NCBI RefSeq assembly: GCF_001465545.3
Contig: NZ_CP013480.3
Coordinates: 3,596,001 to 3,660,000, forward strand
Reading direction: 5' to 3'
DNA from: Pandoraea norimbergensis
Lineage (GTDB): Bacteria; Pseudomonadota; Gammaproteobacteria; Burkholderiales; Burkholderiaceae
DNA length: 64,000 nt
Below are positions 46,230-60,088 of this stretch, piece after piece (positions within the stretch are counted from its first letter, which is position 1; the number at the start of each line of letters is the position of its first letter). The position numbers and the translations under genes are program-made. The notes under the pieces are model-generated. The model was not told the DNA's origin. It ran no database searches and worked only from the letters and a program-made list of their open reading frames with translations.

Positions 46230-46955
46230 TCACGTCTCGAAGAGATGCCGCGCGCCGCGCTGTGCCGCGATGTAGATGGCCTCGCCGCGGTTGCGCGCCC
46301 CGAGCCGCCGGTACAAGGCCGAGACATGCGTCTTGGCGGTGCCCTCGGAGATCACCAGTTGCTGGCAGATGGTCTTGATCGACAACCCGCGCGAGAGCAG
46401 CGCGAGAATTTCGTACTGGCGCTGTGAGATGCCCAATAACGCCGACTCGGCGAGTTGCGTGGCCTTGTCGCCGCCGAGCGGAAACACCGGCATGCGAGAC
46501 AGCGGCAATGCTTCGCCCAGTGCCTCCTGACGCCAGAGCACGAGCAACGCGGAGAGCGCCTCTTCGGGCACGTAACGGCCGCCCGAAAACGCCATATCGA
46601 AGACCGAACGAATGCGTGCAAGCGAGTTCGGCCACGGCAGGCATGCGGTGACGCCCGCCTGAAGCCAGCGAATGATTTCGTCGGGAAAACCCGCATCGCC
46701 GACGACGATCACCGGCACCGGCGGGGTGCATTCACTCGCTACCGCGCACAAGGTGTCGACGGCCGGTGTGCGCGCAATCGTCTCGTCGAGCACGAGCGCA
46801 CGCCGCGACGGCAGCTCGCGCAGCCAAAGCCAGTCTTGTCCCGTGACATCGTCCACGTGACGCAGGACTGGTGGCGTCGCGTTCGCCTCGGTTTGCAACG
46901 CGACTTGCAGGCCGCTCAGCCAGGTGGCAGCCTCACCCACGACCAGCACACGCAT
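46230..46955 (-). CDS. LuxR/NarL-type regulator with degenerate receiver
   Basis: 241 residues. The C-terminal LuxR HTH is clear (about 174-235: GISQRQYEILALLSRGLSIK..., SEGTAKTHVSALYRRLGARNRGEA). The N-terminal half has receiver-like length, but the usual acidic pocket after the first strand is missing (VLVVGEAATWL) and only one Asp (ALVLDET) resembles a phospho-site. It may work without phosphorylation. ATG 46955 has AGGGGAAACC ahead. It is divergent from the LWDE-motif gene at 47370 and precedes the CoA-transferase unit on its own strand; either could be a target. Confidence 0.85.
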   Translation of the reverse strand: MRVLVVGEAATWLSGLQVALQTEANATPPVLRHVDDVTGQDWLWLRELPSRRALVLDETIARTPAVDTLCAVASECTPPVPVIVVGDAGFPDEIIRWLQAGVTACLPWPNSLARIRSVFDMAFSGGRYVPEEALSALLVLWRQEALGEALPLSRMPVFPLGGDKATQLAESALLGISQRQYEILALLSRGLSIKTICQQLVISEGTAKTHVSALYRRLGARNRGEAIYIAAQRGARHLFET

Positions 46956-47369
46956 GGTTTCCCCTGTCGATCCGGTCGGCCTCTGCGCCGCCGTTCCCCA
47001 CTTCCCGTTTCCCGCTAATTTTGTGACGCCTGTCGTTTTGTCATGTTTTCTACGGACTGCGGCCCATCTTGCGGGCCGCGCCGCCAGCAAAAAACCGAAG
47101 AAGTCTTCAGTCTTTTGTCATCCGGTTTTACGTATCAGGCATCACCTCGTTGTTCGAGCAGTTTATGCGTGAAGCCCGCGTAACGGCGCGCCGGCGGACC
47201 TGTGACGCCCATCGATGTTGCCTTTGCGCGACAAAACGCAGTTTGCGTAAATTAATTACTCAAACAAGCGAAAGCAAGCTATTACTTTTTTCCCCTTTCC
47301 TTTCTGTAAACGCGCAATAAAATACAGCCAGTATCGCGAGAACAGCATGCGGAGGCCGGGGGGCACGCC
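46956..47369. other. Divergent intergenic region with AT-rich core
   Basis: 414 nt without a gene. It contains an inverted repeat GCGGCCC...GGGCCGC (47058-47078) and an AT-rich stretch (47245-47325) where base composition falls well below the surroundings. TAAAAT at 47318-47323 is a possible -10 for the plus-strand gene; no -35 or sigma-54 site was found. Confidence 0.5.
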
Positions 47370-47771
47370 ATGTCACACATCTTCGACAGCAAGACGCGCA
47401 CTGCCATGTTTTGCGTGGCCGTTGCGTGCATCACCTCACCGGCTTATGCCGACTCGCTGGACGTTGGCGCCGTGCCGGTCGCTGTGAGCGATGCGCTGCT
47501 CAACAGCACTCGCGCGACCAACGCTCAACGCACCCTTGTCGTGACCAACGTACCCGGCGGCGCCGCTTCGGCGATTGCCCCGGTCAACGCGACCATGACA
47601 ACGGCGAACAACGTGCGCCTGTGGGATGAAGTGATCCCGCCCGTCCCGTCGCCGAAACCCACACAAGTCTCGACGTCGAACCTGCCGCGCACCGTGGTGG
47701 CCAGTGCGCAAAACAATCTGCAAAGAACCAGCCTGAACATCAACGCCACATCGTCGCGGTTGCCGCGCTGA
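47370..47771 (+). CDS. Small secreted LWDE-motif protein at the edge of the Fap-like locus
   Basis: 133 residues. Signal peptide (TAMFCVAVACITSPAYA|DS). The mature protein is polar, Asn/Thr/Pro-rich and lacks Cys. Residues 76-95 (TMTTANNVRLWDEVIPPVPS) align with residues 154-173 of the first fap-operon product (TLANGVTLWDEL region), sharing T-x-AN-x-V-x-LWDE and a following Pro-rich tail, so the two are paralogues. GGAGG lies about 14 nt before the ATG. Function unknown; likely exported and connected to the amyloid system. Confidence 0.65.
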   Translation: MSHIFDSKTRTAMFCVAVACITSPAYADSLDVGAVPVAVSDALLNSTRATNAQRTLVVTNVPGGAASAIAPVNATMTTANNVRLWDEVIPPVPSPKPTQVSTSNLPRTVVASAQNNLQRTSLNINATSSRLPR

Positions 47772-47838
47772 AAATGCGCTGAGTCAGCACCCGCCCGCCG
47801 ACGTCGAACTTACCGCTTCACCCCATCACCATCAAAAC

Positions 47839-47867
47839 AGCCCGGCCAACATCGGCCGGGCTTTTTC
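47839..47867. terminator. Bidirectional terminator between LWDE gene and fapF
   Basis: AGCCCGGCC-aacatc-GGCCGGGCT followed by TTTTT; convergent genes end on both sides. Confidence 0.85.
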
Positions 47868-47872
47868 CGTCA

Positions 47873-49204
47873 TCAGAACGTGTACGGGAAACGCACCCCG
47901 ATCACGTAGTTCGGGGCATCCGGCGACATGCCGGCGTTGACGTAGCCGTTGATCGTCCAGTGCTTGTCGATCGCGTAGTTGATGCCGAAGTTGAGCGACG
48001 CCGCGTTGGTCGTGCTGCCCGCGACCGTGGTGTAGCTCCCGCCCGGCGACGCGGTCTTCGTGGCACGCGAGATGGCCGTCGAGTACGAAATCGACAGTGC
48101 AGTTTTGTCGTTGAGCGCCAACGCCATCCCGGCCCCCACCTGCACGATGTCGCCAAGCTTGACCTTCGCCGGCGTGGTCGTGCCTTCGATCGTCGAGATG
48201 TCGTCGAACGTACGAGCCATGTTGTACGTGTAAGCCACGTTGGCGAACAACACGATCGGATCGTAGGTGCGCAGGAACGACAACCCGGCGGTGAACGCCC
48301 AGATGCCGTTACCCGTGGGCAAACGCGACGGCGTGGTCAGGTTGTTGTTCGTGGGGTCGGGCGTGCCGAGTTTGATGCCGAACGGCGAGGTGCCGGTCGG
48401 TGCCGTCACCCGGAACGACCCGACAATGTCGGGCCAGTTCTGCGATTCCTTGACGAACTGGTAATACAGCGACGCGTTCACGTCGCCGATGTTCGCCGAG
48501 TTCTTGCTGATATCGCTGATCGCCGATGACGCGCCGCCCACCCCGCCCGAAATGAAGTCGGAGTTGCGATACAGATACGGCACGTCGAACGCCACGCTCA
48601 ATCGGTCGTTGATCCCGTAGCGCGTGTTGACGTCGAACGTCCACACGTTGGCTTTGGTTTCGCCGAGATTCAACTGACCGAGAAAGATGGCATCGAGCGC
48701 GAGAAAGCCGCTCAGCACGAGTTGCCGGCGATCGTAGTAGCTGTAGCTGATACCGGCGTCGATGGTGAGCTTGCGATCGAAGAGCGGCGCGTGCTGCGCC
48801 TGCACCACCGCCTCTTCAGCCGGCGTGCGTTGCGAGTCGCTCGTGCTCTTTTGCATCTGCTGCGTTTCGCCGATCGGCGTGGCGGACGTCGGGCCAGCCG
48901 CCCCCGCCGCGCCACCGCCCGGCGTACCTGCCGAGCCGGCGGCGGAGCCGTCACCGGGTGAGACTTGCGCGATCTGCGCGGTGTCCCAGGCAGTGAGCCC
49001 GCGACCGCGTTGCGCCATCTCGATGTCGGTCAGGCGTTGCTTCAGAGAAGAAATTTCCCGCTGCTGCCGGTCAACCATGTCCATCAACATCTGGAGACGG
49101 TTATCCGGCGATGGGTCCGTATGCTCCTGAGCCTGGGCCGATAGCGTGAAAAGCAGTACACCCCAAGTAATGGCGGCAACGGGAAAAAAACGGTGAGTCT
49201 TCAT
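47873..49204 (-). CDS. fapF: FapF-like outer-membrane barrel with N-terminal coiled coil
   Basis: 443 residues. Signal peptide (about 1-26, ending SAQA), a coiled coil at about 35-65 (LQMLMDMVDRQQREISSLKQ...), a Gly/Ala/Ser linker, then a C-terminal beta-barrel from about residue 140 with alternating amphipathic strands and a terminal Phe (RFPYTF). This is the layout of FapF, the trimeric pore that exports Fap amyloid subunits. ATG 49204 has GGGGGGG ahead. It is the last gene of the cluster and 381 nt from fapE, more than any other spacing here. Confidence 0.75.
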   Translation of the reverse strand: MKTHRFFPVAAITWGVLLFTLSAQAQEHTDPSPDNRLQMLMDMVDRQQREISSLKQRLTDIEMAQRGRGLTAWDTAQIAQVSPGDGSAAGSAGTPGGGAAGAAGPTSATPIGETQQMQKSTSDSQRTPAEEAVVQAQHAPLFDRKLTIDAGISYSYYDRRQLVLSGFLALDAIFLGQLNLGETKANVWTFDVNTRYGINDRLSVAFDVPYLYRNSDFISGGVGGASSAISDISKNSANIGDVNASLYYQFVKESQNWPDIVGSFRVTAPTGTSPFGIKLGTPDPTNNNLTTPSRLPTGNGIWAFTAGLSFLRTYDPIVLFANVAYTYNMARTFDDISTIEGTTTPAKVKLGDIVQVGAGMALALNDKTALSISYSTAISRATKTASPGGSYTTVAGSTTNAASLNFGINYAIDKHWTINGYVNAGMSPDAPNYVIGVRFPYTF

Positions 49205-49585
49205 GATCCCCCCCGGGTAAAAGTGCGGCGAGCGCCTCGCGACGTCGTGCCGCGCGCAATCCAACAAACACGTGTTTCCAAACGACGGTTGTCCTTGCTG
49301 CTCGACTGCGGAGCGACGCGTGCAGGGGGTTGCTTTACCGTTGTTGCCACCCTGCCGACGTCACCCTTTTGTGCGCCACGTGCCTGCCGACCGATGCCAC
49401 CGATGCCACCAATCAACCCCGCTGGGATCGCGGGTCAGCATCGCTTGCCGGCTTCAACTGCTACGCGGCGTTGCCCCTTGGTTGTCATGGCGCCCGCGAC
49501 CTGCTTCCGGGCGCTGCCGGCTTCTCGTTGCCGTTACTGTTACCGTTTCGTAACGTTACGGCGGCAACGAGAGCCACCTGCTTAT
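49205..49585. other. fapE-fapF intergenic region
   Basis: No gene seen. It holds a stem-loop right after fapE (49524-49571), a perfect 12-bp palindrome AAACACGTGTTT (49266-49277) and, next to it on the minus strand, a GG-N10-GC pair (49263-49248) that could be a weak sigma-54 promoter for fapF. Confidence 0.5.
49524..49571 (-). terminator. Stem-loop after fapE
   Basis: Outer perfect 10-bp stem CTCGTTGCCG/CGGCAACGAG, an internal loop, and an inner GTTAC/GTAAC stem. It begins 15 nt past the fapE stop. There is no U-tract, so it may stabilise the upstream mRNA or pause polymerase rather than terminate. Confidence 0.5.
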
Positions 49586-50353
49586 TCAGCGACGCACAGC
49601 GACCATGTTCGCCATTGCGTTCTGAACACCGACCTGTCGAAGGGCGTTCGACGTGAGCGGATTCGTTTGCAGATTCAATTGCAGCGTGTTCATCACCTGC
49701 TGCGCGTTGCCTGCGACCTGTACGACCTGCATGATCTGATTCATCGCACCACCGGCACCGCCGGCGACGCTCTGCCCGAGGTTGCCGTTAGGCGTATTCA
49801 AAGCAATTTGCATGCCCGCCGAGGTGATCGCCACACTGGCGCTCAGGTTGCCCACGGTGGTTTGAGAGTTGCTCTGCCCTTGGGCGCTGGTTGGCACCAG
49901 CATCGACAGCGAGACGCCCGGGGCGTACTGAATGGTGGCTTTGTTGAGCGCGTTGTTCGCGTCACCCGCCACCTGCGTGACCTGTGCCACACCATTGACC
50001 AGCACGCTCGCGGCACCCGCGACAGCCTGCGTGATCGGGGTTGTCGCGTTCACCAGACCGGGGATAATGCCGGTCGCGGCAGCGGTCTGGACCTGATAAC
50101 CCGTGTTATTGGCGTTCTGGCTCACACCGAGCACGCCGGTCGCCGCAAGACTGGCGCCGGTCGGCATTTGCCATTGCGACTGCATCACGAGCTGAAAGCC
50201 CGTGATCATGTTTTGCTGCGCGTATTTGCCGGTGGCTTGTGCGAGCACGTCGTCACCGACGGCCTGCCAGCTATCGGGCACCACGCTCGACGCAACTGCC
50301 GGCACGGCACTCACGAGGAACGGGATGGCCAGCATCGGGACGTAACGGTTCAT
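49586..50353 (-). CDS. fapE: FapE-like secreted protein
   Basis: 255 residues. Signal peptide (MNRYVPMLAIPFLVSAVPAVA|SS). The mature protein is Gln/Asn/Ala/Val-rich with regularly spaced amphipathic beta-type segments (GVAQVTQVAGDANNALNKATI, MNQIMQVVQVAGNAQQVMNTL) and no Cys. In Pseudomonas fap operons the gene between the C39 peptidase and the barrel is fapE, a minor fibre component; assignment here is by position and composition. It starts 12 nt after the fapD stop. Confidence 0.6.
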   Translation of the reverse strand: MNRYVPMLAIPFLVSAVPAVASSVVPDSWQAVGDDVLAQATGKYAQQNMITGFQLVMQSQWQMPTGASLAATGVLGVSQNANNTGYQVQTAAATGIIPGLVNATTPITQAVAGAASVLVNGVAQVTQVAGDANNALNKATIQYAPGVSLSMLVPTSAQGQSNSQTTVGNLSASVAITSAGMQIALNTPNGNLGQSVAGGAGGAMNQIMQVVQVAGNAQQVMNTLQLNLQTNPLTSNALRQVGVQNAMANMVAVRR

Positions 50354-50365
50354 GATGTTCTGGTC

Positions 50366-51076
50366 TCAAAACAGGTTCGACCGGATGATGCCGAAGTCCA
50401 CCATCGGGGTCGCTGTCGTCCCGGTCGTCAAGGCGCTGTCGCGCAACTTGACCGCCAGGGACTCGTTTCCTTTGAGTAGCGGAGAATCCTCCAGGAACGG
50501 CTTGCCGATGACCGCCAGGACCAAGCCATTCCACTGCTTGGCAAAATCGGCTTGCTCGATAATTCGGTTGCCCAGCGCGGGGTCGGACACGAAGATGCGC
50601 CCGTCTCTAGCCGCCTTGATGAGCACGAAATGCTGGTACCCGTTGACATCGATGAGCGCAATGACCGGGATCTTCAGGTCATACAGCGCGTTGATGTCCA
50701 CCTTGAAGCCACGCCCCTCGAGTCCGAGCGTCTCGACGAATTTCTTCATGTCGAGCATCGAGAACCCGTTCTTGATGACGGTCTCCGGATTGGAGAAGAC
50801 CATCATCTTCTTGATCATTTCCGGCTCGGGGATGTCGATCCCGTAGCCGTATCGCAGCAGTGTCGCCAGTGCTGCGGAACCACAACTGAAGTCGTATTCC
50901 TGCTGGACCAGATTCACGTAGTGCATCGACTTGAACGAACGCATCGTCTTGACCGCCGGTACGCCAGTCGAAGACTCCAGGTTCACCGATGCATACTGCG
51001 CGTGCCCGGCCCCGCTTGCGCACGCCAGAGCGCAAACAGTAGCGATCCTCACTGCGGCACGACGCGCATCATTCAT
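50366..51076 (-). CDS. fapD: C39-family peptidase, FapD-like
   Basis: 236 residues. N-terminal signal peptide (VRIATVCALACASGAGHA), then a C39 papain-like domain with catalytic Cys65 (QEYDFSCGSAALATLLRYG), His149 (GYQHFVLIK) and Asp165 (FVSDPALGN). FapD in Pseudomonas is a periplasmic C39 protein required for Fap secretion. ATG 51076 has GAGGTG 4 nt ahead; an ATG four codons upstream is less well placed. It follows a strong hairpin after the subunit gene. Confidence 0.85.
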   Translation of the reverse strand: MNDARRAAVRIATVCALACASGAGHAQYASVNLESSTGVPAVKTMRSFKSMHYVNLVQQEYDFSCGSAALATLLRYGYGIDIPEPEMIKKMMVFSNPETVIKNGFSMLDMKKFVETLGLEGRGFKVDINALYDLKIPVIALIDVNGYQHFVLIKAARDGRIFVSDPALGNRIIEQADFAKQWNGLVLAVIGKPFLEDSPLLKGNESLAVKLRDSALTTGTTATPMVDFGIIRSNLF

Positions 51077-51090
51077 GACACACCTCATGA

Positions 51091-51122
51091 AAAAACCGGT
51101 CCGGGGAGACCCCGGACCGGTT
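51091..51122 (-). terminator. Perfect hairpin with U-tract between fapC and fapD
   Basis: A 13-bp perfect stem (AACCGGTCCGGGG with CCCCGGACCGGTT) and a 3-nt loop, followed on the minus strand by a T-run leading straight into the fapD ribosome site. It is 7 nt past the fapC stop. It should terminate most transcripts after the subunit gene and allow limited read-through. Confidence 0.8.
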
Positions 51123-51129
51123 GCACACC

Positions 51130-52509
51130 TTACTTGATTGCCGAGATGGCAAGGCTGTTGCTCTGGACGTTGCCGATGCCCGAAGCCACGTTCACGCCGA
51201 TGTTGCCGCTAGCCCAGGCGAGTGCACCTGCGCCCAGCGAAGCATTGGCGATGAAGTCGCCCGAGGCCTTCATGCCAGCCGTTTGGTCGGTTTGGGCCGT
51301 CGAATTGGCCGCGCCGCCCTTGTACCAGCCGGTCGCCCCTTGCGAGACTGCCGCAGCCAGACCGTTTTGCTGCACGTTGCCGACACCCGAAGCCACGTTC
51401 ACGCCGACGTTCCCGGTCGCACCGGCGAGGGCACCATCACCCACGCTCGAGTTGACATAGAACTGCGACAGGCTGGCCGAACCCTTCGACGACTGGTTCG
51501 CAAACACTTGTGCCGAGGCATACACCGGCTGAGCGTTGAGCGAAGCGATCGCGACGTTGTTCGCCTGCGCGTTGTCGGCACCTGCGGCCACGTTCACGCC
51601 GATGTTGCCGTTGGCGTTAGCCAGCGCACCACCACCCAGCGTCGCACCCATCGTTTGATAGACCGCGGTGTTGGTATGGAACGTGATAGCGCCCTTTTCC
51701 CACGTGGTTGCCATCGTGTAGGTGTTCGAGAAGCCCCACAGAGCACCGGCGGCGATCGAAGCCGAGTTCGTCGTCGCGCTGCCGTAGTCCACATTCGAGT
51801 GGAACGCGGCGTCGAAGCTCTTCTGGGTATTCAGGAAGCCACCTGCGAGGAAGCCACCGGCCGACTGCGATTGCTGACCGTAGGCGTATCCACCCCAGAT
51901 CGAACCTTGACCGGCACCGGCATTGCCGACGATGTAGCCACCGTACAGAGCGAGACCACCCGGCAGCGGGATAACGCCGCCACCGATGATGCCGCCAGCG
52001 GCTGCAATGTTGGAATACTGATACCCGCCACCGGCGATGAAGCCGCCCGAGCCGGAGTTGGACTGACCGGCAACATAACCGGCGCCTGCCTGGAAGGACT
52101 GATTCGTGTTGAGGTGGCCGCTCGCCGTTGCGTTGACCCACGAGTCCGTATTGCTATACGTCTTCGTCGTCACGCCGCCGATGAGGTAGGCACCACCGGT
52201 GTCAGACACCGTCGTGGTCTTCGCGTCGACGCCATACGTCACGTGACCCGTCGTGTAGTTGCCGAGCAGCGGCCCCTTCAGGTTCACGTGGTGGACGTCT
52301 ACGCTCTGGTTGCTTTGCACGACGGCGTTGCCGGTGTTATCCACCGTGACGCAGCCGCGAATGCCGACCAGACCGAAAATGCCGACCAGGTTGAGCACGT
52401 TGGTTTCATTGCCGATGAACGAGAAGCTATATTGCTGGTGATTGGGTGACGCCATAGCGGTACCCGTAGCTACCAGCAGTGCAGCCGCTGCAATTGCTTT
52501 CGTTTTCAT
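51130..52509 (-). CDS. fapC: FapC-like amyloid subunit with three imperfect repeats
   Basis: 459 residues. Signal peptide (KAIAAAALLVATGTAMA|SP). An N-terminal region (about 22-130) is followed by a long Gly/Tyr/Ala/Ser-rich segment (GGYIVGNAG, GSIWGGYAYGQQ). Three imperfect repeats occur at about 294-324, 359-389 and 428-457, each of the form GALA-xA-xGN-(I/V)-GVNVA-(A/S)-G-x2-N-x-Q-x-N. This matches the GNxGVNxAAGxxNQQxN-type repeats of FapB/FapC that form the amyloid core. Only one Cys is present (near residue 53) and no C-terminal CxxC. ATG 52509 has AAGGAGATGGTC ahead. Likely the major fibre subunit. Confidence 0.75.
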   Translation of the reverse strand: MKTKAIAAAALLVATGTAMASPNHQQYSFSFIGNETNVLNLVGIFGLVGIRGCVTVDNTGNAVVQSNQSVDVHHVNLKGPLLGNYTTGHVTYGVDAKTTTVSDTGGAYLIGGVTTKTYSNTDSWVNATASGHLNTNQSFQAGAGYVAGQSNSGSGGFIAGGGYQYSNIAAAGGIIGGGVIPLPGGLALYGGYIVGNAGAGQGSIWGGYAYGQQSQSAGGFLAGGFLNTQKSFDAAFHSNVDYGSATTNSASIAAGALWGFSNTYTMATTWEKGAITFHTNTAVYQTMGATLGGGALANANGNIGVNVAAGADNAQANNVAIASLNAQPVYASAQVFANQSSKGSASLSQFYVNSSVGDGALAGATGNVGVNVASGVGNVQQNGLAAAVSQGATGWYKGGAANSTAQTDQTAGMKASGDFIANASLGAGALAWASGNIGVNVASGIGNVQSNSLAISAIK

Positions 52510-52539
52510 GACCATCTCCTTGACGAGAGAGTTACCCAG

Positions 52540-53190
52540 TTAAAAAGCTGTGCCCGCCGGGGGACGGAGCACAAAAACATTTGCGGTTACATTGCCTATC
52601 CCAGCCGACTGGTTCACTTGCACCACCCCGCTCGCGCCCCGGAATGCGTCACCGGAAATCGACGCCGTACGGAACTGATCGTTGAGGTTGTCGTGCCCAG
52701 CCGGGCCACCCTTGGAGATCGCAGCGGATAGTGCCGTATCCGATACGCTCGCCACTCCAGCCGCATCGCCCATCACAATGACCGTAGCGTTGCGTTGAAG
52801 ATTGCCGGCACCGCTCGCCTGGTTCACCTGCACCAGTCCGGACGTGCCTGAAAATGCGTTGCCTTGAATTGCCGCGCTCGCGGCGCCTGTCGTGCTCGTG
52901 ACGACGGCTGCCTGATTGGTACTCGACGTGCCGACCGTGACGCTGCCACCGTTGGCAATCAGCGCGCTGTTGGCTTGGGCGTTGTTCAGCCCGGCCGCCT
53001 GATTCACGGTCAGCGCGCCGGTCGCGCCCACCGCGACGCCGCTCTCGACAGTTGCGCTCGTGCCGGCGAGCTGGCCGTTCACGATGTAGATGTCTTCCGC
53101 AGAAGCCGTCCCGGCAAAGCCGGCGGCGAGGGCCATGGCCACCACCAGCGGTGCGCCGTGCAGGCGTCGAATGTCGCGATACGCGCTCAT
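52540..53190 (-). CDS. fapB: FapB-like amyloid nucleator/minor subunit
   Basis: 216 residues. Signal peptide ending near FAGTASA|ED. Three repeats at about 55-80, 111-140 and 181-208 share (S/T)G-x-(V/L)-x-VNQ-(A/S)-(A/S)-G-x-x-N-x-x-x-N, the short VNQ variant of the Fap repeat. In Pseudomonas, FapB is proposed as the nucleator of FapC fibres. Its ATG overlaps the stop of the upstream gene (ATGA), and fapC follows after 30 nt. No Cys at all. Confidence 0.7.
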   Translation of the reverse strand: MSAYRDIRRLHGAPLVVAMALAAGFAGTASAEDIYIVNGQLAGTSATVESGVAVGATGALTVNQAAGLNNAQANSALIANGGSVTVGTSSTNQAAVVTSTTGAASAAIQGNAFSGTSGLVQVNQASGAGNLQRNATVIVMGDAAGVASVSDTALSAAISKGGPAGHDNLNDQFRTASISGDAFRGASGVVQVNQSAGIGNVTANVFVLRPPAGTAF

Positions 53191-53699
53191 TTGGCGACTC
53201 CCGCAGCACCCATGCTAGTGAGCGGCGCCAAGGCCGAGTTGATGACCGACGGCACCAGCGTGCCGATACTGCCGATACCGCCGCCACCGCCCGAGCCGCC
53301 GGCAAAACCGCCGCCGACGCCGTTCGAGGAATTCAACGCGTTGCCGCCACGGGCATTGCCCACCAGCACACCCATCACCGGATTGATGCCCGACTGTACG
53401 GCGCCGGTGATCAAGCCCACCGAAGCGCGCCCCGTCAACTCACCATCCGTGACTTGATTGACGGCGCCCATCGCGGTATTGAACGGGCCGGTCGGGAAAG
53501 CGGGGACCGAGATGCCAATCGGGTTCTCGACGCGCGGCAGTTGCCGTCCGACGTACTCCGGCCCGATGTTGCGCTCGATGACGATGTCTCCCGGCGGGGC
53601 CGGTTCGGCCCGGGCGGTGGCGGGAAGCAGCGCCGGGGCGACTGCCACGAGCATCGTGGCGATCGCGCTGGCAGCCTGCATCACTGAAGTGTTCATCAT
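53187..53699 (-). CDS. Secreted Gly-rich protein, second gene of fap-like operon
   Basis: 170 residues, no family recognised. Signal peptide (about 1-31, ending ATARA|EP). Residues 65-118 carry NTAMGAVNQVTDGELTGRAS and VQSGINPVMGVLVGNARGG, with VNQ and GN elements echoing the Fap repeat; a poly-Gly stretch (GGGFAGGSGGGGG) follows. It begins 5 nt after the preceding stop and overlaps fapB by 4 nt. By position it could stand in for FapA, the chaperone of Pseudomonas systems, or be another fibre component. ATG 53696 is an alternative start. Confidence 0.6.
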   Translation of the reverse strand: MMNTSVMQAASAIATMLVAVAPALLPATARAEPAPPGDIVIERNIGPEYVGRQLPRVENPIGISVPAFPTGPFNTAMGAVNQVTDGELTGRASVGLITGAVQSGINPVMGVLVGNARGGNALNSSNGVGGGFAGGSGGGGGIGSIGTLVPSVINSALAPLTSMGAAGVAK

Positions 53700-53704
53700 G
53701 TCGT

Positions 53705-54295
53705 TCACCGGGTGGTGTAGGTCACACGCATGACCTGGACGTTGTTCACACCGTTCGACAGTTGCTGCGGACGCGGCGTCGGCGTTACGGCGCCGGGCAG
53801 TTCGTCCCACAGCGTCACGCCATTCGCGAGTGTCATGCCGGGTGACTTGACCATCGTGCCGCCCTGCAAATTGCGGCCGCGCTGGTTGCCGAGTTGTTCG
53901 TCGTCGATGCGTGCGGCGGCAAGCGGTACCTTGCTCAGGCCAGCATCGTTGCTGCTGTTCGTATTGCTGTCGTCGCTGCTGGCAACGGCGGCCGATTCAT
54001 CGACCGGGGTTTGCACGGCGGTTTGTTCAGTGGCCGGGCCGGCCGACACCGCCACGTCAGCATCGCTGATCGGCGTTGTCGTCATCATGGCCGTCACAGG
54101 CGTCATGGAGGCCGACGGCGGCACCATGGAACCCGTGAGCATTGCAATCTGCATGAGCGGGGCGCGCAGTGCGGGGGCCGCATCCTGCGCCTGTGCCGGC
54201 GCAGCGCACAGACCGAGCGTCACGACGATGGCGGCGCCTATGGCGCCTGCGCCTTGTCGTACTCGGTATTGCATTTCGGTGGTGAGAATTCGCAT
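53705..54295 (-). CDS. Secreted LWDE-motif protein, first gene of fap-like operon
   Basis: 196 residues. Signal peptide (AIGAAIVVTLGLCAAPAQA|QD). A disordered Met/Thr/Ser/Asp-rich middle leads to DDEQLGNQRGRNLQGG at 131-146 and LWDEL at 162-166 with a Pro-rich tail. The LWDE block is shared with the protein at 47370-47771. The DEQLGNQRGR...GG stretch vaguely resembles double-glycine recognition sequences handled by C39 peptidases (speculative). AAGGAGG 8 nt before ATG 54295 fixes the start; a sigma-54 promoter lies 30 nt upstream. No family recognised. Confidence 0.65.
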   Translation of the reverse strand: MRILTTEMQYRVRQGAGAIGAAIVVTLGLCAAPAQAQDAAPALRAPLMQIAMLTGSMVPPSASMTPVTAMMTTTPISDADVAVSAGPATEQTAVQTPVDESAAVASSDDSNTNSSNDAGLSKVPLAAARIDDEQLGNQRGRNLQGGTMVKSPGMTLANGVTLWDELPGAVTPTPRPQQLSNGVNNVQVMRVTYTTR

Positions 54296-54324
54296 CGCTG
54301 TGCCCTCCTTGCCCGAGTCTATAA

Positions 54325-54340
54325 AGCGACTTCCGTGCCA
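54325..54340 (-). promoter_or_regulatory. Sigma-54 promoter of the fap-like operon
   Basis: On the minus strand TGGCACG-GAAG-TCGCT (54340-54325). The -24 element is a perfect TGGCACG and the -12 GC is at exact GG-N10-GC spacing; TCGCT differs from TTGCW at one base. Predicted start about 54314, leaving a 19-nt leader with AAGGAGG. The nearest upstream gene encodes a sigma-54 activator. Confidence 0.75.
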
Positions 54341-54980
54341 CAACGCTCAAGTGCTTGAAAACATGAAGACTTTTATTTTTCACCCCCGTGCCCGACGGGT
54401 GCCGCGTTCGAAAACGTTTCAGCATTGATACGTGATGCGGTTCCTGCCACTTTTGTCACGCTTGCCGCGTCGCCGGCAGACATTCCGAACCGCGAGGGAT
54501 GTCGGCGTGGTCAGCGACGTCTTTCGGAAATGCCCTATACACAAGGGTCTTGCGTGACAGATTTGCGGCAGAATCCACCGCTCCCCCGCAAACGACATCG
54601 CAACGTCACACCCGGTGCTTTGCAACGCGAGGCCCGCCGATGCCCCGGATGTTTCATCTTTGATGTGTTCGCGGGACAACCCGTAGTGCCCGGACCGCCG
54701 AAACTTCGTACCCCTCGACATGACGGCAAGGTGGCAGCGCCGTGACACCCCTTTCGCCACGACGCGCCGACACTGCACCGCACAATCTCTCGCGCTTCGA
54801 GACAACGCATTGCGTACGACGGCGCGCATCGCCGGAATCGCTCGAAAGCCCCGTCGTTATTGACGATGGCAAGGCTCGCGAACGACGAGTACGCGTCGAA
54901 AACCACAGTAAATTTGGGGGGGAGAGATCGTGCAAAAGACGGGCCGATCATCAGGAAGAATCGGGAATAATCAGGAGCCC
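54341..54980. other. Upstream control region of the fap-like operon
   Basis: No supportable gene in about 640 nt; frames here have no ribosome sites or recognisable products. Candidate activator sites include AAACGTTT (54412-54419) and an imperfect dyad CACCCCCGT...ACGGGTG (54381-54401), 40-80 nt upstream of the -24 element, the usual range for an enhancer-binding protein. Confidence 0.45.
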
Positions 54981-55016
54981 AAAAAGAAACGACCGCCCTG
55001 CTCAACGCAGGACGGC
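54981..55016 (-). terminator. Terminator of the VpsR-like regulator gene
   Basis: On the minus strand GGCCGTCCTGC-GTTGA-GCAGGGCGGTC (two G-U pairs), then GTTTCTTTTT. Confidence 0.75.
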
Positions 55017-55039
55017 CGCCCTCTCTTCGCCAGAAGATA

Positions 55040-56401
55040 TCAGGCCGGCACGCCCGATTCATCACCACGCAATCCATATCGGCACATCAGTCGATACAGC
55101 GTAATACGCGAAATTCCCAACTCTGCCGCCACGTCGGTCAGACGATGGCAGTGACGCAACAAGGCCTGCTCGATGGCAATTCGTTCGGCTTCCGTACGAA
55201 TTTCTTCGAGCGTGCGTACCAGCGTCGGCACCCACGGCAACAGGTCCAGATCCTTCGCCGAAATCATGCGGCTGTCAGCCATCACGATGGCGCGGCGAAC
55301 CCGGTTGATGAGCTCACGGACATTGCCGGGCCAGTGATACTCATACATGGCTTGCACCGCACACTGCGTGAAGCCACGAATCTTGCGATGGTTATCGCCT
55401 TTGAAACGTTGCAGCACGTGATGGGCCAGAATTTCGATGTCCTGACCACGCGCACGCAGCGGTGGTTCGTCGACACGCAACACGCACAGGCGGTGATACA
55501 GGTCGACGCGGAAGCGTCCTTCTTTCACGGCCTCTTCGAGATCGACGTGCGTTGCGGACATCACCCGCACGTTCACCGGAATGACATCGTGGCCGCCGAG
55601 GCGCTCGATGGCCCCCTGTTGCAGAAAGCGCAGCAGGCTCGCCTGACTCTCGATCGGCAAGTCGCCGATTTCATCGAGGAACAGCGTGCCGCCGTTAGCC
55701 GCCTCTACCCGGCCGATCTTGCGGGCGTTGGCGCCTGTGAAAGCACCACGCTCATAGCCGAACAGTTCGGATTGCATCAAGTGCGGGGGAATGGCGCCGC
55801 AATTGATCGCCACGAACGGCCCCTTGGCACGCAAAGAGCGCTCATGAATCGCCACCGCGCTCAGTTCCTTGCCGGTGCCCGACTCGCCCGAGATGAACAC
55901 CGGCGCGTCGGTATTGGCCACTTTGCGGATGGTGCGGAATAGCAGTTGCATCGCCTCACAGGTGCCGACCATTTCCTGATCGCCACCGACTTGCGGCGTG
56001 AAGATGACGGGCACCTCGCACAGCGAGGCCATGCCCCAGGCGTGACCGATCGAGTGCGCGAGCTGATCGTTCGTGCACGGCACGTTCACGTAGTCGAAGC
56101 AATAGTCGCGAATCAGCCGGCGCACCGACGTCGTCGTGAGCTGTTGTGGATTCGTGGCAGCAACCCAGCCGACGGTCGCCGGCTGCATGCAGGACTCGAA
56201 CGCGCCGAGCTCGCGATCGGTATAACCGCTCGCCAAGTCGATGAGTGCTGCGCTGGTAACCCCGGGATTGAGAATGCGACCGACGTCGCTGGCGCTCTTG
56301 GCCGGCACAACTTGCCAGCCTTGCTCGCCCAAAAACGACAACAAACCGTCGTTGTGCTTTCGGGAAGCGTAAATCAGGGTGCGCCCGGTATCGTTAGCCA
56401 T
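55040..56401 (-). CDS. Sigma-54-dependent activator, VpsR-like
   Basis: 453 residues. The N-terminal 130 residues form a divergent receiver-like domain of the VpsR type ([14 protein letters not shown]...[12 protein letters not shown]). The AAA+ domain has Walker A GESGTGKE (172-179), an intact GAFTGA loop (219-224, [14 protein letters not shown]), Walker [11 protein letters not shown] (238-247) and an arginine finger region; a Fis-type HTH ends the protein ([19 protein letters not shown]). GAFTGA contacts sigma-54 and is lost in VpsR itself, so this protein should activate sigma-54 promoters. VpsR and BerB relatives bind c-di-GMP. Its neighbour downstream is the fap-like operon with a sigma-54 promoter. 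GGGAGTTAAGGT precedes the ATG. Confidence 0.88.
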
Positions 56402-59650: not shown

Positions 59651-59988
59651 GCCAAATTGTAACAGTTCGGCGGTGAGCTTCCGCACCGTTGGACGCCGCC
59701 CGATCAGGCGTCGATCCGGCTCGGAACGTCACCTCGTCGTGCGGTGAATGACGCCGGCGAATTGAGGAGACTATCGGTGCGATAGAAAAAAATGTTGCGC
59801 GATTCTACCGCGCCCGTCCGCCCTGCGCGAGGCGCATGAGAATGCATCGCATCGATAGCGGGAAAGCATGATCGACAGCGTGACGGCAAGCGAGCGCAAA
59901 ACCGTATTGCGGGCTTGAAACACATGACTTCGAGGGAGAGTACGATGCGCAGAACGCGCTGAGAACTTCGATAAAACAAGGAGGTAAG
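59651..59988. other. Leader region between ffs and dnaX
   Basis: No gene seen in 338 nt. A TAGAAT on the minus strand (59807-59802) is a possible -10 for dnaX without a clear -35. Confidence 0.5.
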
Positions 59989-60088
59989 GTGACGAGCCTG
60001 ACCCTCGGCACTGGTAGAAAACGGCTGTGGCTGCTTCGTTCCCGACCTGACCAGATTGGCCGCGCCACCATGCGAGGAGGCCCGTCAG
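59989..60088 (-). ncRNA. ffs: 4.5S RNA, bacterial small signal recognition particle RNA
   Basis: On the minus strand the SRP apical domain GGTCAGGTCGGGAACGAAGC-AGCCA is present, with its GGAA-type loop region and asymmetric loop. The ends pair as a long hairpin: 5' CTGACGGGCC with 3' GGCTCGTCA, and CCTCG with CGAGG inward. About 100 nt, the size of the Alu-less form that binds Ffh. A TAGAAT -10 lies 7 nt upstream of the inferred 5' end. Ends are inferred from pairing and may be off by a few bases. Confidence 0.88.

Follow-up and report, generated by a model that had tools for sequence, protein, structure and literature searches.

An uncatalogued exported protein at the head of the fap amyloid operon of Pandoraea norimbergensis shares a predicted FapD leader motif with FapE

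The closest described systems are the fapABCDEF operons of Pseudomonas (UK4, PAO1, and PF07). The C39 peptidase FapD is essential for Fap secretion and catalytically required; its target has been described as unclear (2017, PMC5557850) and as undetermined (2018, PMC6173800), and a 2025 review goes no further than naming FapE and FapF as its presumed substrates (PMC12822426). In Pseudomonas fluorescens, fap adjoins the gene for BrfA, an RpoN-dependent activator that senses cyclic di-GMP (c-di-GMP) (PMC9207406, PMC13101488). Fap is already in print for Burkholderia and Pandoraea (PMC3792158, PMC6173800), the latter genus being named in the 2018 review (PMC6173800). Here, we analyzed a 64,000-nucleotide window of Pandoraea norimbergensis (NZ_CP013480.3, positions 3,596,001 to 3,660,000; the host genome is a single contig of 6.17 Mb). 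The window holds a fap locus with the same six products in the same order as in Pseudomonas, including a C39 FapD, but it adds a gene at the operon head, which we call X, and a convergent paralogue, Y. The operon is X-fapA-B-C-D-E-F and is read from one sigma-54 promoter. Judged by sequence, X is an uncatalogued family of exported proteins and a new fap component. See Table 1 for the coordinates of all features.

From the N- to the C-terminus, X proteins consist of a signal peptide, a variable low-complexity stretch, the motif [LIV]xDxxL-x4-G-[RGTK], a spacer of 14–26 residues, V-x-LWDE, a Pro-/Gly-rich stretch, and a tail. An alignment of 33 X rows chosen independently of the leader (A3) has as its invariant columns the start Met, the L at −7 and G at −2 of the motif, a V, LWDE, and one Q in the tail. 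N.Q or Q.N occurs in the tail of 66/67 distinct X sequences, against a shuffle mean of 19.3. The AlphaFold model of X is mostly disordered, with a mean predicted local distance difference test score (pLDDT) of 51.5. Residues 132–141, which make up the motif, form the sole helix besides the signal helix (block pLDDT about 72), and strands are confined to the tail. Pfam and NCBIfam contain no family for the window's X and returned merely scattered weak matches for the 33 rows, and solved structures gave no convincing match (best E 0.17). In the open-access papers searched, with texts available in part and subscription papers mostly outside the coverage, no named seventh fap gene, LWDE family, or FapE leader motif turned up.

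We searched for X as an open reading frame (ORF) with V-x-LWDE lying no more than 2.3 kb upstream of a fapA or fapB anchor. The pool comprised 139 anchored loci (labeled L plus a number), with some species included twice. X was present in 78 of these, 67 of them distinct. By our own sorting, Burkholderiaceae account for 69 of these (out of 76 loci) and other lineages for 9 (out of 63). Every one of the 32 named Pandoraea, Paraburkholderia, Burkholderia, and Trinickia loci has X, and it stands at the operon head in 20/20 fetched Pandoraea loci. Beyond the family, X is seen in Acidiferrobacterales (L194, L195), Methylotenera (L223), Halomonas eurihalina (L228), and loci L137, L139, and L154–L156. 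The fap order is rearranged in L156, L194, and L195 (activator, fapC, X, (fapA), fapB, fapD, fapE, fapF), and L137 has two FapE-like genes. Where family loci have X, the gene sits between the promoter and fapA; in five family loci lacking it, the sigma-54 promoter is 41–73 bp (L093, L094, L095, L101) or 94 bp (L100) from fapA. The V-x-LWDE search found no X in the Pseudomonas, Lysobacter, Luteimonas, Ralstonia, and Aquitalea loci examined.

The motif of X is shared with FapE. In 138/138 pooled loci with a FapE match, [LIVA]x[DEP]xx[LIVM]x4G[KR] follows the FapE signal peptide; the pattern was read in the frame of that match, and rows were selected regardless of the motif. The FapE model places a helix at residues 34–41 (pLDDT 58–59) and strands from residue 48, such that the helix directly precedes the beta-rich part; for X as for FapE, the model gives the leader helix modest confidence. 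A fold search with this model gave no match at E 0.001. We scored X with a matrix trained on 14 distinct FapE leaders from other families only. The score of the window's X was matched by 0/500 shuffles, and the same was true for 16 of the 19 X rows tested. The strict leader [LIV]xDxxLxxxxG[RGTK] is present in 66/67 distinct X (the exception is L154), whereas 200 shuffled sets gave a mean of 0.085 and a maximum of 1.

Double-glycine leaders contact C39 peptidases through positions −4, −7, −12, and −15, with GG, GA, or GS at their end (PMC7018657). We read the X positions with a pattern allowing L/I/V/A/M at −12, L/I/V/M/F at −7, and G/A at −2. All 67 distinct X have L/I/V at −12 and L at −7, and 66 have G at −2; R is usual at −3, and −1 is always R/K/G/T. 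The Fap motif resembles the leaders of peptidase-containing ATP-binding cassette (ABC) transporters in its hydrophobic −12 and −7, its glycine at −2, and the presence of a C39 peptidase (PMC7018657). It differs in that the predicted Fap leader follows a Sec signal and would be cut in the periplasm, that −1 is often R/K on the Fap side, and that −4 is Q in most Burkholderiaceae X. The predicted cutting site shared by X and FapE suggests what FapD cuts. We think it likely that FapE is a FapD substrate, and X is probably a second one. The N-terminus of FapE is missing from published mass spectra (PMC5557850).

Several observations weigh against this reading. The model system, Pseudomonas, has no X by the V-x-LWDE search. 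The FapE matrix fails on remote X, whose scores were reached by 168/500 (L137), 46/500 (L139), and 4/500 (L098) shuffles; it gives low scores to the FapE of the window (4.7 bits, 5/300 shuffles) and to Y (2.5 bits, 11/500 shuffles), and a high one to FapB of L093 (16.8 bits, 0/100 shuffles). When the 47 greedy longest ORFs in the window were scored, a set that does not include X, FapF ranked first at 7.7 bits, followed by an unrelated ORF at 5.8 and FapE at 4.7. The strict pattern was written after inspecting the sequences. The −4 position, hydrophobic in double-glycine leaders, is Q in 55/67 X, and −1, where G, A, or S is expected, is R/K/T in 38/67 and G in 29/67. The gap in the mass spectra spans about the first 70 FapE residues, beyond what a cut near residue 40 explains (PMC5557850). 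The starts of the FapC repeats (VGDGALAGATGN) look similar to the FapE motif (VGDDVLAQATGK). Lastly, the curated NCBIfam cut-offs are reached by none of the window's Fap products (e.g., 372.5 vs 700 bits for FapF), which we take to mean that these are divergent Fap members. The FapF cut-off is exceeded by 0/249 family genomes, and therefore the NCBIfam models look tuned to narrower groups.

Some of these points would fit a standard fap operon whose X is an accessory secreted protein specific to the lineage, where the leader-like motif has a structural or fiber-binding role and is no protease site. The FapC repeat starts lie in the register of the FapE motif, FapB of L093 scores high on the FapE matrix, Q occupies −4 in most X, and the N.Q/Q.N tails of X are like amyloid repeats. 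However, the FapE motif follows the signal region and is predicted to form a helix ending at the glycine, the usual R at −3 and constant R/K/G/T at −1 of X are unlike the repeats, and RGG forms occur beside other C39 genes. We regard this explanation as possible but unlikely. As a separate observation, FapC amyloid repeat starts (e.g., VGDGALAGATGNVGVN) have the L-x4-G register of the FapE leader, and either a common origin or FapD docking is possible.

The other C39 genes belong to a second, Fil-like system in Burkholderiaceae (L102–L107), with FapD-like and FapF-like proteins, the latter matching the FapF model at about 1e-40. A motif ending in RGG is present in the protein upstream of the C39 gene in 6/6 loci, downstream in 5/6, and in the barrel protein in 4/6 (first 160 residues). 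Such systems resemble fap in their FapD-like/FapF-like pair and in the RGG leaders of neighboring proteins. They differ in having no FapA, FapB, or FapC by tblastn with the window operon products, and no LWDE protein was seen adjoining the C39 gene. The RGG leader of the barrel protein follows a coiled coil in 4/6 loci, and several loci have a repeat-rich protein upstream.

We also considered FapA and FapF as leader proteins. The FapA score is not significant in the window (64/100 shuffles), yet FapA of L087 reaches 6.7 bits with 0/100 shuffles. FapF was dropped as a clear third leader protein. In FapF of Burkholderiaceae and of the Lysobacter type, the coiled coil is directly followed by a conserved RGRG, which comes close to the leader register but mostly misses it, by one residue. 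Only the RGRG of L093, L094, L095, L101, L192, and L193 can be fitted with a loose leader pattern, as can another RGR in L143. Pseudomonas FapF mostly has no leader match, and the loose matches in L131, L134, L230, and L234 are without RG.

LWDE proteins also occur apart from fap. A profile of A3 found them in 51/130 family genomes, 16 of which have no FapF of this type (one, G113, has the second type only). We fetched all 16 fap-less loci (L250, L251, and L280–L293), and a filter recovered the LWDE ORF in 15 of them, the exception being L292. In 15/15, the activator gene adjoins the LWDE ORF (tblastn E 0.0) and a TCGCT-type sigma-54 site is present; the dyad near −90, described below, is perfect in 14 and has one mismatch in 1. 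No fap product was matched at E 1e-5 within the fetched stretch of these 15 loci, except FapB in L280. The strict leader is present in 0/15 of these LWDE proteins, whereas it is missing in 1/67 distinct X with fap, and the species are related, so that Fisher values for the leader loss overstate certainty; the lack of phylogenetic independence in our species counts is a further point on the negative side. In L280, the −2 position is, by eye, no longer glycine. A dfrA-like ORF (by eye) stands beside 16/16 fap-less loci and 12/15 fap loci tested, though not in Pandoraea, and thus most loci appear to share one chromosomal site.

That the activator and the LWDE gene persist under the same dyad and sigma-54 site in 15/15 LWDE loci would be expected if X were tied to the activator and not to the fiber, with X an exported protein that partners a BrfA/VpsR-type regulon and travels with fap. 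However, X with fap has the leader in 66/67 distinct sequences, while the fap-less LWDE proteins are without it and have the N/Q tail in just 4/15. Since the leader and, mostly, the tail are missing without fap, X is tuned to Fap as well, and the leader goes with FapD. The nearness of X to fapB is partly by construction, because X was sought within 2.3 kb of the anchor. We consider an exclusive tie to the activator quite improbable.

The third explanation, curli or another exported repeat family, is compatible with repeat-rich exported proteins alone but has almost no chance of being right, given the ordered FapA–F models, the PDB matches of FapF and FapC, and the lack of curli families among the Pfam/NCBIfam matches of the nine products. 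The NCBIfam FapA–F models match the products in operon order, and FapA and FapE are in operon order in 20/20 fetched Pandoraea loci. By sequence comparison, FapF has a coiled coil and a 12-stranded barrel, and solved FapF (5o65) matches its residues 145–445. FapB and FapC have amyloid repeats recognized by their NCBIfam models and, for FapC, by the solved fibers 9nqd and 9u4u (E about 1e-11); the three FapC repeats begin at residues 293, 358, and 427. FapD residues C69, H153, and D169, which we take to be catalytic, are invariant in a nine-row alignment. Among named sequences, the nearest FapD belongs to Pandoraea iniqua (99%). The locus is almost certainly a fap-type amyloid operon, a call that holds because FapF matches solved FapF and FapC matches the FapC fiber structures.

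An initial annotation, made from the letters of the DNA, had already proposed a Fap-like locus, and profile and structure-sequence searches bear it out. The outcome it named as refuting, a barrel unlike FapF and repeats unlike FapB/FapC, did not come about in these sequence comparisons. All of its gene positions are correct. Its two signal-peptide proteins are X and FapA, its two repeat proteins FapB and FapC, its C39 peptidase FapD, its repeat-poor secreted protein FapE, and its coiled-coil and barrel protein FapF. The internal hairpins it described are real, and its far-end paralogue is Y. It erred in finding no obvious FapA; the gene after X matches the FapA model, and X is an additional head gene that had been noticed solely as this supposed absence.

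Table 1. Features of the fap locus in the window (positions counted from the first letter of the window)
Feature	Position	Strand	Evidence or remark
fap locus	47370-56401		activator, X, and fapA-F on minus strand; Y convergent on plus strand
Gene Y, X paralogue with LWDE	47370..47771	+	leader degenerate (VSDALLNSTRAT); convergent to fapF
Two-way terminator-like hairpin between fapF and Y	47839..47862	.	hairpin search
fapF, coiled coil and outer-membrane barrel	47873..49210	-	NF058560 2.3e-111; PDB FapF 5o65 1.4e-77
fapE	49586..50353	-	NF058559 1e-15
Leader motif of FapE, VGDDVLAQATGK, residues 32-43	50225..50260	-	pattern in 138/138 pooled loci
fapD, C39 peptidase with signal peptide	50366..51088	-	NF058616 3.2e-58; Pfam C39 2.8e-25
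Intra-operon hairpin and T run, fapC-fapD gap	51094..51122	-	13-bp perfect stem
fapC, major amyloid subunit, three repeats	51130..52515	-	NF058558 3.5e-16; PDB FapC 9.2e-12
fapB, nucleator-type amyloid repeat protein	52540..53190	-	NF058557 7.4e-25
fapA	53187..53699	-	NF058617 chaperone_FapA 3.7e-9; signal-peptide protein
Gene X, 196-aa predicted exported protein, LWDE family, operon head	53705..54295	-	signal peptide; relatives in 78/139 fap loci
LWDE of X, invariant	53801..53812	-	alignments A1 and A3
Leader motif of X, IDDEQLGNQRGR, residues 130-141, predicted FapD site	53873..53908	-	FapE-trained matrix 21.8 bits; predicted helix
Sigma-54 -24/-12 promoter TGGCACGGAAGTCGCT	54325..54340	-	conserved in place upstream of X (window and each of 20 fetched Pandoraea loci)
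Candidate activator binding dyad ACGTATCAATGCTGAAACGT	54414..54433	-	about 90 bp upstream of sigma-54 site
Second candidate activator site ATCAAAGATGAAAC (Pandoraea)	54651..54664	-	about -324 of sigma-54 site; conserved in Pandoraea rows
Terminator-like hairpin after activator gene	54987..55021	-	15-pair stem and T run
BrfA-type sigma-54 activator: VpsR domain, AAA+ with GAFTGA, Fis-type helix-turn-helix	55040..56401	-	Pfam VpsR 3e-21, Sigma54_activat 1.5e-67

The activator gene upstream of X encodes a fap-linked protein with a VpsR-type N-domain, a sigma-54 AAA+ domain, and GAFTGA, the last of these conserved in 110/115 fap-linked activators. In a tree, it groups with 28 other fap-linked activators (support 93/93) and stands apart from its own-genome paralogues, of which the tree includes five of eight, several on long branches. 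It is very probably of the BrfA type. BrfA of P. fluorescens PF07 is likewise RpoN dependent, adjacent to fap, and c-di-GMP responsive (PMC9207406, PMC13101488), a likeness drawn from the published description. The PF07 gene lies downstream of fap in reverse orientation, whereas the window's lies upstream and is co-directional. The initial annotation had listed the locus's own sigma-54 activator as a distinguishing feature; the activator is present, but since BrfA is known beside Pseudomonas fap, the pairing is not new. BerB of Burkholderia cenocepacia is also a sigma-54 activator and binds c-di-GMP, but its gene adjoins the bep exopolysaccharide cluster and not fap (PMC5552954), and for this reason we did not assign a BerB identity.

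The sigma-54 pattern has 33 matches in the window against 36 expected, so that the site alone is chance-prone and its position and conservation carry the claim. Upstream of it, 66/66 distinct family promoters with 450 bases upstream have a TTTCA-N4-TGAAA dyad, with at most 2 of its 10 positions mismatched, that starts between −97 and −81; in 62 rows it starts at exactly −90. The dyad was defined on the same data as counted. The next most frequent offset is −325, in 18 rows (the second Pandoraea site), followed by offsets with at most 5 rows; the mean elsewhere is 0.06. In most Pseudomonas loci, the 2.6 kb upstream of fapB showed no match to the sigma-54 pattern, but a −24/−12 promoter is published for PF07, and our pattern or anchor is thus too strict there.

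The fapC-fapD gap has a hairpin with at least 8 perfect pairs in 17/21 Pandoraea rows. Many Pseudomonas fap loci also have a hairpin in this gap, but with another sequence; the place is conserved between the two genera and the sequence is not. The hairpin is often terminator-like and would fit a lowered expression of the genes that follow fapC.

A search of the window's own genome with a profile of X and its relatives recovered Y (E 7.2e-6). Y is present in 20/20 fetched Pandoraea loci, and the strict leader is present in 1/21 Y. On the opposite strand beside Y, the ORF at 46230-47090 has a C-terminal part resembling a LuxR-type response regulator (putative). Elsewhere in the window, a small signal recognition particle RNA (59988-60086, Rfam RF00169) lies near dnaX-like and recR-like ORFs (by eye), an ordinary arrangement.

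The sequences themselves establish the gene identities, the conservation of motif, promoter, and dyad, and the lack of the leader where fap is missing; we infer from them how the system may work. The BrfA-type activator most likely switches the operon on via the TTTCA-N4-TGAAA dyad, probably in response to c-di-GMP. FapA–F would act as in Pseudomonas, with Sec export, FapA as chaperone, FapF as pore, and FapB nucleating the FapC fiber. The periplasmic C39 peptidase FapD would recognize a short helical leader, [LIV]xDxxLxxxxG[R/K/G/T], in the −12/−7/−2 register of double-glycine leaders, which FapE and X carry behind their Sec signal, and would cut after it. Cleavage of X would free a ~55-residue peptide with V-x-LWDE and the N/Q-containing tail. 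This peptide may exit with the fiber, and we would guess that it associates with the fiber through its tail. Taken whole, the reading of FapE and X as FapD substrates in a sigma-54-controlled, probably c-di-GMP-responsive operon seems to us reasonably likely.

A broader proposal has, in our estimate, an even chance of being correct. Sec-exported proteins could bear a second, double-glycine-type leader removed by a free periplasmic C39 peptidase, as a general two-step export code of Fap (FapE and X) and of the sister C39-plus-barrel systems; X would then found a family of LWDE matrix proteins kept under the same sigma-54 activator where amyloid genes are lacking. X calls the six-gene fap inventory into question. 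The leader conserved in FapE and in this new component gives precise predicted FapD cut sites to test, and the fixed-position dyad provides a candidate activator site through which the control of fap in Burkholderiaceae can be tested.

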